Part shown: positions 19,881 to 21,231 of the stretch, piece by piece
Layout: each line of letters begins with the position of its first letter
How positions within the stretch are numbered: position 1 is the first letter of the stretch
Assembly: GCA_944392965.1 (NCBI GenBank)
Contig: CALXYM010000006.1
Location: forward strand, 1 to 64,000
From: an uncultured Spirochaetaceae bacterium
Lineage (GTDB): Bacteria; Spirochaetota; Spirochaetia; Sphaerochaetales; Sphaerochaetaceae
DNA: 64,000 bases
Direction of reading: 5' to 3'
Position numbers and translations under genes: made by a program
Notes under the pieces: generated by a model
What the model saw: the letters and a program-made list of their open reading frames with translations, nothing else
Database searches by the model: none
What the model was told of the DNA's origin: nothing

Positions 19881-20546
19881 ATGGACTACGATAAATTTTT
19901 CTCAGAGATATTTACGTTATTCAGCTCAGAACTGACAAAAAGGGGAATAGCCCTTCCTTCCGTTTCTGAAATCGCAGGAGAGGATAATGATCCTTATAGA
20001 GTACTGGTATCAACGATACTTTCTCTCAGGACAAAGGACAAGGTGACGATTGAGAGATCAAAGGCCTTATTCGAAAAGGCTGGAAACATCTACCAGCTGT
20101 ATGACATGAACATCGAAGAACTTGCAGAGACCATAAAACCCAGCGCATTTTATAAGAGAAAGGCAGAGAATCTGAAGGAGATAGCGAAGATCATAATAGA
20201 CAGGTATGATGGCAAAATTCCAAATGATATGGATGCCCTTCTCTCTCTTCCCGGTGTCGGCCTAAAGACAGCTTCCCTCACTCTTAATCTGGGATTCAAC
20301 GAACTTGCAATCTGCGTAGATTGTCATGTACATCAGATATTGAACAGAATAGGAATCATCAGAACAAAGAATGCGGAAGAGACTGAAAGGGAGCTTAGAA
20401 GAATTCTTCCAAAAAGATTCTGGATACCACTGAACGAGCTTCTCGTAAGTTATGGACAGGCGGTATGCAAAAGCATATCTCCTCTATGCACTCAATGTCC
20501 CTATGAAGGCAAATGTCCAAAAATAGGCGTCAGAAAATACAGATGA
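19881..20546 (+). CDS. nth: Endonuclease III (DNA glycosylase/AP lyase)
   Basis: 221 residues with the SD aaagg five bases before the ATG. The HhH-GPD core is seen as LSLPGVGLKTASL, with the catalytic Lys, and CVDCHVHQILNR, with the catalytic Asp. The C-terminal [4Fe-4S] loop is intact: Cys-X6-Cys-X2-Cys-X5-Cys in CKSISPLCTQCPYEGKC. It removes oxidised pyrimidines in base excision repair. The start is 48 bases from the divergent DAHP synthase fusion. Confidence 0.93.
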   Translation: MDYDKFFSEIFTLFSSELTKRGIALPSVSEIAGEDNDPYRVLVSTILSLRTKDKVTIERSKALFEKAGNIYQLYDMNIEELAETIKPSAFYKRKAENLKEIAKIIIDRYDGKIPNDMDALLSLPGVGLKTASLTLNLGFNELAICVDCHVHQILNRIGIIRTKNAEETERELRRILPKRFWIPLNELLVSYGQAVCKSISPLCTQCPYEGKCPKIGVRKYR

Positions 20547-20694
20547 TAAAAAACCTCTGGATGAGGACGAACCAGAGGCAAAGAGCTTTCGTATAACGGA
20601 AACAGGCGCCTACGACACCACCACAACTCCCTGTAAGAAAGAAAACGAAAGCCAAAAAAGGTGGTAGGATTACTCTCTATAATCACCAGTGCCT
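20547..20694 (-). ncRNA. Candidate structured small RNA of unknown family
   Basis: About 148 nt on the minus strand with its own promoter (20701-20730) and a perfect intrinsic terminator (20554-20578). There are two long-range helices. Helix B is gctttcgt (20585-20592) with acgaaagc (20645-20652), 8 perfect pairs. Helix A is cctac and cacc (20609-20619) with ggtggtagg (20660-20668), 9 pairs with a 2-base bulge. The helices interleave, forming an H-type pseudoknot. The 5' and 3' ends can also pair (tgcct 20690-20694 with aggca 20576-20580). I do not recognise it as 6S, tmRNA, SRP or RNase P RNA. The minus strand is favoured by the promoter and terminator; the A-rich loops on the plus strand keep the opposite orientation possible. 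Confidence 0.5.
20554..20578 (-). terminator. Intrinsic terminator of the candidate small RNA
   Basis: The perfect 7-bp stem cctctgg (20554-20560) / ccagagg (20572-20578) is followed on the minus strand by six T's. It lies 8 bases past the nth stop on the opposite strand. Confidence 0.75.
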
Positions 20695-20700
20695 AATACA

Positions 20701-20730
20701 ATGTTAGTGTCTATTCTTTAATCTAGTCAA
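20701..20730 (-). promoter_or_regulatory. Promoter of the candidate small RNA
   Basis: On the minus strand: -35 TTGACT (20725-20730), an 18-base spacer, and -10 TAACAT (20701-20706). The predicted start is at 20693-20694. Confidence 0.5.
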
Positions 20731-20776
20731 GAAGATAAAAAAATAATTGTAACCTTATGAGTCCTAAAGCATTATA

Positions 20777-20814: not shown

Positions 20815-21231
20815 TTATTTAACTACCCCTTTGAGGGCACCTTTACTCGCTTTTAAAATAGAGAAGAGAATAAGCAGATGATAAATAAAAGTCTCAATCC
20901 ACTCGAAGATCTCCGTACCGCTGAAATTACCGAAACCATAGACGAAATCAGAGAATACGATTACAAGAATCCAGACGATGGAAACGATGATCATTGAATA
21001 CTTGGTGAAAATCGGTTTGATTCCACTGACGAAAAGAGGAACAATGATGAGCAGTCCACAGACGATGAGGACTATCCCCAGGATGATGTTGACCGTATCA
21101 TTACCTATCGCCCTATATAAATCATTACCACTTCCATTGGCGACCCCTTCAATTCCAATACATACGAAAAGTAGTCCGATGAGGATTTTCAATCCGACAT
21201 CCCCTACTGTTTTAATCGTAGCTTTTGCCAT
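20815..21231 (-). CDS. Hypothetical membrane protein with four predicted spans
   Basis: 138 residues with an SD (ggaggg) upstream of the ATG. Hydrophobic segments near residues 14-32, 47-68, 78-100 and 112-128 (IILGIVLIVCGLLIIVPLF and IIVSIVWILVIVF are the clearest) predict a small four-helix inner-membrane protein. No family motif was recognised. It is divergent from pth with a gap of 52 bases and has its own terminator. Confidence 0.7.
   Translation of the reverse strand: MAKATIKTVGDVGLKILIGLLFVCIGIEGVANGSGNDLYRAIGNDTVNIILGIVLIVCGLLIIVPLFVSGIKPIFTKYSMIIVSIVWILVIVFSDFVYGFGNFSGTEIFEWIETFIYHLLILFSILKASKGALKGVVK

Follow-up and report, generated by a model that had tools for sequence, protein, structure and literature searches.

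Among the described regulators closest to the RNA reported here are MicA and RybB, enterobacterial sRNAs that regulate omp messengers under the control of sigma-E and speed the decay of their targets (PMC1804206), MicA in association with Hfq (PMC3551931). Another is FasX of Streptococcus pyogenes, which base-pairs with ska mRNA at its 5' end, protects that end, and raises the stability of the message (reviewed in PMC4691137). The RNA that we describe lies in the window (the whole stretch of DNA analyzed, 64,000 nt from an uncultured Spirochaetaceae bacterium) and resembles MicA and RybB in being a short intergenic RNA, apparently transcribed on its own, with an intrinsic terminator and a predicted pairing to the leader of an outer-membrane-protein mRNA. 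It differs from them in its sigma-70-like promoter, in belonging to a genome where no Hfq was found, and in its predicted pairing at nucleotide 1 of the mRNA, whereas theirs lies near the start codon. With FasX it shares the position of pairing at the 5' end of the target and the use of pyrimidine-rich segments, but FasX is a Firmicute RNA of other sequence and target, and stabilization would here be a presumed effect. No sequence relation to MicA or RybB and no homology to FasX were detected. The RNA family is new; the kind of regulator is already known. In our literature searches, no studies of sRNAs in Sphaerochaetaceae relatives came up.

The gene occupies the gap between the DNA-repair gene nth, on the plus strand, and a minus-strand gene for a 138-aa membrane protein that gave no match in a Pfam search (Table 1). 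A sequence-only reading of this DNA had proposed a small RNA gene on the minus strand downstream of nth, bounded by a promoter and by an intrinsic terminator with six T's, with no function suggested. Both signals are present, and conservation in four species together with one covarying helix bears out the gene itself, which we regard as almost certainly a real conserved sRNA gene. The promoter, TTGACT-18-TAACAT, is sigma-70-like in all four species and not of the sigma-E type; the predicted RNA 5' end is set 7 nt past the -10 hexamer, and the terminator reads GCCUCUGG...CCAGAGGUUUUUU. When a coding reading was tested, no ORF common to the four homologs was found. With its own promoter, an intrinsic terminator, and no ORF, the locus has the makeup of a gene for a trans-acting base-pairing sRNA. 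A shared sequence also precedes the promoter in the four species (20731-20776 in the window): TAATGC is followed after about 15 nt by GTTACA, with an A/T tract as well, and the whole may represent an UP element or a regulator site.

Table 1. Positions of the RNA gene, its proposed elements, and its neighbors in the window
Feature	Position	Strand	Remark
nth	19881-20546	+	HhH-GPD, PF00730; convergent with the RNA; anchor used to locate homologous loci
Predicted small RNA, about 147 nt	20548-20694	-	from promoter and terminator positions, alignments, and homologs
Terminator U run, six T	20548-20553	-	
Terminator stem-loop GCCUCUGG/CCAGAGGU	20553-20579	-	
Helix B 3' arm ACGAAAGCU	20584-20592	-	
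Proposed targeting segment UUUCCGUUAUAC	20591-20602	-	core UCCGUUAURC; complementary to omp leader start
P0 3' arm	20604-20610	-	3-4 nt lie between its end and the UCCGUUAU block in each of the four
P2 3' arm GUGGUGG	20618-20624	-	covaries between lineages
Helix B 5' arm GGCUUUCGU	20645-20653	-	second interleaved helix of the sequence-only reading; crosses P2; unchanged in G000 and G063 only
P2 5' arm CUACCAC	20661-20667	-	first interleaved helix of the sequence-only reading; covaries between lineages
Hairpin P1 GAUUA...UAAUC	20668-20684	-	weaker form in G010
P0 5' arm AGGCACU	20688-20694	-	pairs well in G010 and G002, weakly in G000 and G063
-10 hexamer TAACAT	20701-20706	-	18-nt spacer, length constant in all four species
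-35 hexamer TTGACT	20725-20730	-	same in all four species
138-aa membrane protein gene	20815-21231	-	upstream of the RNA; also flanks the site in related genomes

Single-sequence folding gives an MFE z score of -1.30 for the minus strand and -0.80 for the plus strand, and in simple scans 2.4 promoter-like and 1.0 terminator-like sites are expected in this stretch by chance. Since the single-sequence fold is not unusual, the case cannot be proven from this one sequence. The earlier claim that such an arrangement is unlikely by chance draws no strength from the fold or the scans, which are unexceptional, but it gains support from conservation: the promoter, RNA, and terminator recur at the same locus in three other species (G063, G010, and G002), likewise convergent to nth, and for this reason we take them as more than coincidence. 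Third codon positions of nth are 37-49% identical among the four, so that silent sites are near saturation; despite this, all four species keep the -35 and -10 hexamers 18 nt apart, together with the terminator and blocks of the RNA. The invariant RNA blocks are CACUGG near the 5' end and UCCGUUAURC, the longest, which is neither of the two interleaved helices. A chance meeting of a promoter-like and a terminator-like stretch between two genes, with no RNA gene, would suit the unremarkable fold and the abundance of such sites in AT-rich DNA, but four-species conservation far above neutral expectation and the covariation of helix P2 speak against it; because homologs exist it is largely refuted, and we give it very little credence.

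The host group is an Ornithospirochaeta-like genus; comparison through nth led to the named relatives Candidatus Ornithospirochaeta and further uncultured Spirochaetales of the gut. A survey of 48 genomes of the genus by BLAST, a gapped pattern, and two sequence models found the RNA in four, one copy each: the window's own genome (G000), G063 (to which L066, CALXKU010000007, also belongs by coordinates), G010 (loci L033/L067), and G002 (L034/L134), the last three all reached by reading downstream of nth in relatives. A class-wide search yielded no further homolog, its single weak extra match looking like coding sequence. Diverged copies elsewhere in the genus and class were considered and rejected, the remaining matches being chance or coding, and plasmid and phage collections gave no match. 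A scan of the window and homologs against Rfam 15 at gathering and relaxed thresholds matched no family, in agreement with the sequence-only reading, which had not recognized one; the best weak match was anti-hemB, at 20.4 bits versus a cut-off of 49.5. It is extremely improbable that the locus encodes a diverged universal or otherwise known RNA (6S, tmRNA, RNase P, SRP, or a riboswitch). 6S RNA was not found over its cut-off in this genome, which would leave room for such a reading, but presence in 4 of 48 genomes is unexpected for a housekeeping RNA, no homolog matches Rfam over threshold, and no gene follows on the RNA strand before the antisense of nth. 6S itself was rejected for want of an RF00013 match at the locus and for a distribution far from near-universal.

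The two species closest by nth lack the RNA, and in both the gap is occupied: G017 (locus L065) has a gene for TnpB (PF07282, PF01385) and further ORFs there, and locus L064 a short ORF with no Pfam match that looks like a transposase remnant. Among the carriers, G010 has the RNA next to a gene for a PfkB kinase. The nth tree leaves the branching order of the six (the four carriers and these two) unsettled, so that a single gain of the RNA followed by loss is a possibility. The interval from nth to the 138-aa-protein gene is a variable spot in general (L064 3657-4206, L065 3657-6149, L067 3657-4978), measuring about 80 bp in some relatives and elsewhere holding TnpB/IS605-type and other ORFs or the PfkB kinase. 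In place of the missing RNA, L065 has on its minus strand, just downstream of nth, another short segment that contains hairpins (CACCATC...GATGGTG) and a terminator and might be an unrelated RNA.

The arrangement with nth brings up another explanation, that the RNA acts solely in cis on the 3' end of nth mRNA, tuning nth or ending convergent transcription, with no target in trans. The U run ends 1 nt outside nth, and no terminator for nth was found on the plus strand of the gap, so the nth mRNA would cross the complement of the entire RNA. The constraint, however, sits in the promoter, the covarying helix, and a loop-like motif, none of which pure antisense pairing needs, and nth persists in relatives that lack the RNA, there with a bare terminator on the minus strand. 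We therefore regard a purely cis-acting element as improbable.

The pattern of helix conservation suggests that the consensus fold is a small junction and that the possible pseudoknot would be an addition of one sublineage. Helix P2 carries the comparative evidence. Its arms are CUACCAC/GUGGUGG in G000, GCCACCG/CGGUGGC in G063, GCUGUAA/UUACGGC in G010, and UGCUGUAGA/UUUACGGCA in G002, wholly different between lineages yet pairing within each, at -9.0 to -15.3 kcal/mol for arms of the same lineage versus -2.4 to -8.9 kcal/mol across lineages. In all four, P2 starts 0-4 nt past hairpin P1 and ends 13-17 nt before UCCGUUAU. A helix common to this position arose in 0.07-0.5% of shuffles (0.0007-0.005). 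The pairing comparison and the shuffles are both partly post hoc because the anchors were picked after inspection. Covariation thus supports P2 across all four. Helix B does not vary in the closer pair, G000 and G063, where it is strong and has the same sequence, and it pairs poorly in G010 and G002.

Helices P2 and B cross, so that the window's RNA could form an H-type pseudoknot of two interleaved helices, like riboswitches and type III antitoxins; it differs from these in having no downstream gene or toxin and in having the crossing helix in only two of four species. The description of the RNA as pseudoknotted is accordingly supported in part: P2 covaries in four species, and the crossing helix is invariant in G000 and G063 and weak in the other two. 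Of the interleaved helices of 8 and 9 pairs that had been described, the second does have 9 (GGCUUUCGU/ACGAAAGCU), but the first has 7 in either register (UACCACC/GGUGGUG or CUACCAC/GUGGUGG). The proposed end-closing helix AGGCA/UGCCU exists, with 5 bp, but it overlaps the terminator, and the alternative closing helix P0 fits better. P1, P0, P2, and B compete partly for the same bases, which makes alternative folds likely.

The complement of the longest invariant block, GUAUAACGGA, stands at predicted nucleotide 1 of the leader of a putative outer membrane protein gene, here omp, in all four genomes (in G000, contig C16 from 50165, locus L219 from 1166). GYATAACGGA occurs 12 times in G000, 5 in G063, 5 in G010, and 10 in G002, nearly always within genes, and 8 times in G017. 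Outside coding sequence, the RNA itself and the start of the omp leader are the only places where all four have it, and among the genes at these places a single homologous group recurs, with the protein start MKKILTIL..LL..TT.FA. In G063, only the RNA gene and the omp leader, among five sites, lie outside long reading frames. Seed sites are not globally enriched in G000 (12 matches versus 13 for a reversed control), and the lead to a target comes from the recurrence of the site at an orthologous leader.

The omp leader has a near-invariant layout, GUAUAACGG(A)nGGGG...CGUGCCCUGAGGUGCGCACCCC...GGAGGAAGUAUG. The site lies 7 nt after TATAAT, the distance by which leader nucleotide 1 was predicted, and 63-65 nt before the ATG. 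In G000, the predicted duplex has 12 contiguous pairs plus 3, at -21.3 kcal/mol; among 63 decoy 5' regions, the best reached -14.2. Across the four genomes the energies are -21.3, -19.6, -16.6, and -15.9 kcal/mol, all from leader position 1, and complementarity is perfect except for one G-U pair in G010 and G002. The RNA thus has a segment complementary to an mRNA encoded elsewhere, and the duplex would cover the first nucleotides of the target, on its predicted start, as expected of a FasX-like 5'-end protector. Predicted folds partly support single-strandedness: the first leader nucleotides are unpaired in G000 and G002, and in G010 and G063 some of the targeting segment is paired. Shuffles gave p-values of 0.0005-0.03 in one test and about 0.002 in another, values that overstate significance because the target was found by a genome-wide search; by our rough estimate, the probability that some conserved leader would begin with a match of this kind by chance is 0.1-4%. 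On balance, the RNA likely pairs with the omp leader.

The target gene is a putative outer-membrane beta-barrel gene. Its product weakly resembles the TDE1717 family outer membrane beta-barrel of NCBIfam (best E 2.7e-5, below the cut-off), matches nothing in Pfam or the PDB, and has a signal-peptide-like N terminus and a C-terminal Phe, as is usual in outer membrane proteins. A structure model (pLDDT 32) was too low in confidence for use. The omp leaders of five species (L219:1166-1228, L203, L206, L202, and L211; 63-65 nt) are nearly invariant and have a GGGG...CCCC hairpin and a strong promoter, with no match in Rfam, and the leader might itself serve as a regulatory element.

Because the whole leader is conserved, the RNA need not be the reason for the conservation of the site. 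G017 keeps the GUAUAACGGA leader with no RNA detected, and the site may therefore be conserved for another reason. These observations give a real, if minor, chance to a conserved structured sRNA with another target, mRNAs or a protein, for which the omp complementarity would be coincidental. Many purine-rich Shine-Dalgarno regions are potential partners for the pyrimidine-rich loop of P2, and a protein-binding RNA would also show conserved structure. Set against this, the sole long invariant unstructured block is perfectly complementary, but for one G-U in two species, to position 1 of a near-invariant leader in all four genomes, and CsrA, the best known protein sponged by such RNAs, was not found in the genome; a CsrA sponge was rejected on the same ground.

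The exact complementarity to the predicted first letters of the omp messenger makes control by base pairing probable, and we favor, with some reserve, a trans-acting, Hfq-independent base-pairing sRNA acting on the 5' end of omp mRNA. Such an RNA would be transcribed independently from its single-copy gene and would fold into closing helix P0, hairpin P1, and the covarying P2 with a long pyrimidine-rich loop, with the intrinsic terminator at the end. UCCGUUAURC would pair in trans with GUAUAACGGA at the mRNA 5' end, spanning mRNA nucleotides 1-10/12 and leaving the Shine-Dalgarno sequence, about 50 nt off, free; the purine-rich leader could make further contacts with the P2 loop. With the first 10-12 nt covered and the Shine-Dalgarno sequence free, an effect on stability would be likelier than direct exclusion of ribosomes, through 5'-end protection or duplex-triggered decay. 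The action could be stabilizing (FasX-like) or decay-accelerating (MicA/RybB-like). Neither Hfq (PF17209) nor CsrA had a match in the window's own genome, which is 95% complete, and chaperone-free or otherwise assisted pairing is proposed for this reason. A fuller version, which we offer tentatively and hold to be doubtful in its entirety, is a lineage-specific, Hfq-independent spirochaete sRNA that covers the start of a major omp mRNA, protecting or exposing its 5' end, with the competing helices (P0, P1, P2, and B) gating the targeting segment. A conserved RNA with a specific omp target would offer a starting point for work on how gut spirochaetes control their outer membrane post-transcriptionally, and would allow a test of whether FasX-like pairing at mRNA nucleotide 1 occurs outside Firmicutes.

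A further GTATAACGGA outside long reading frames is found in the same genome (G000:C1:338434; L195:1501), just before a GGGATGGCA...TGCCATCCC hairpin and T run; it could be another site or chance.
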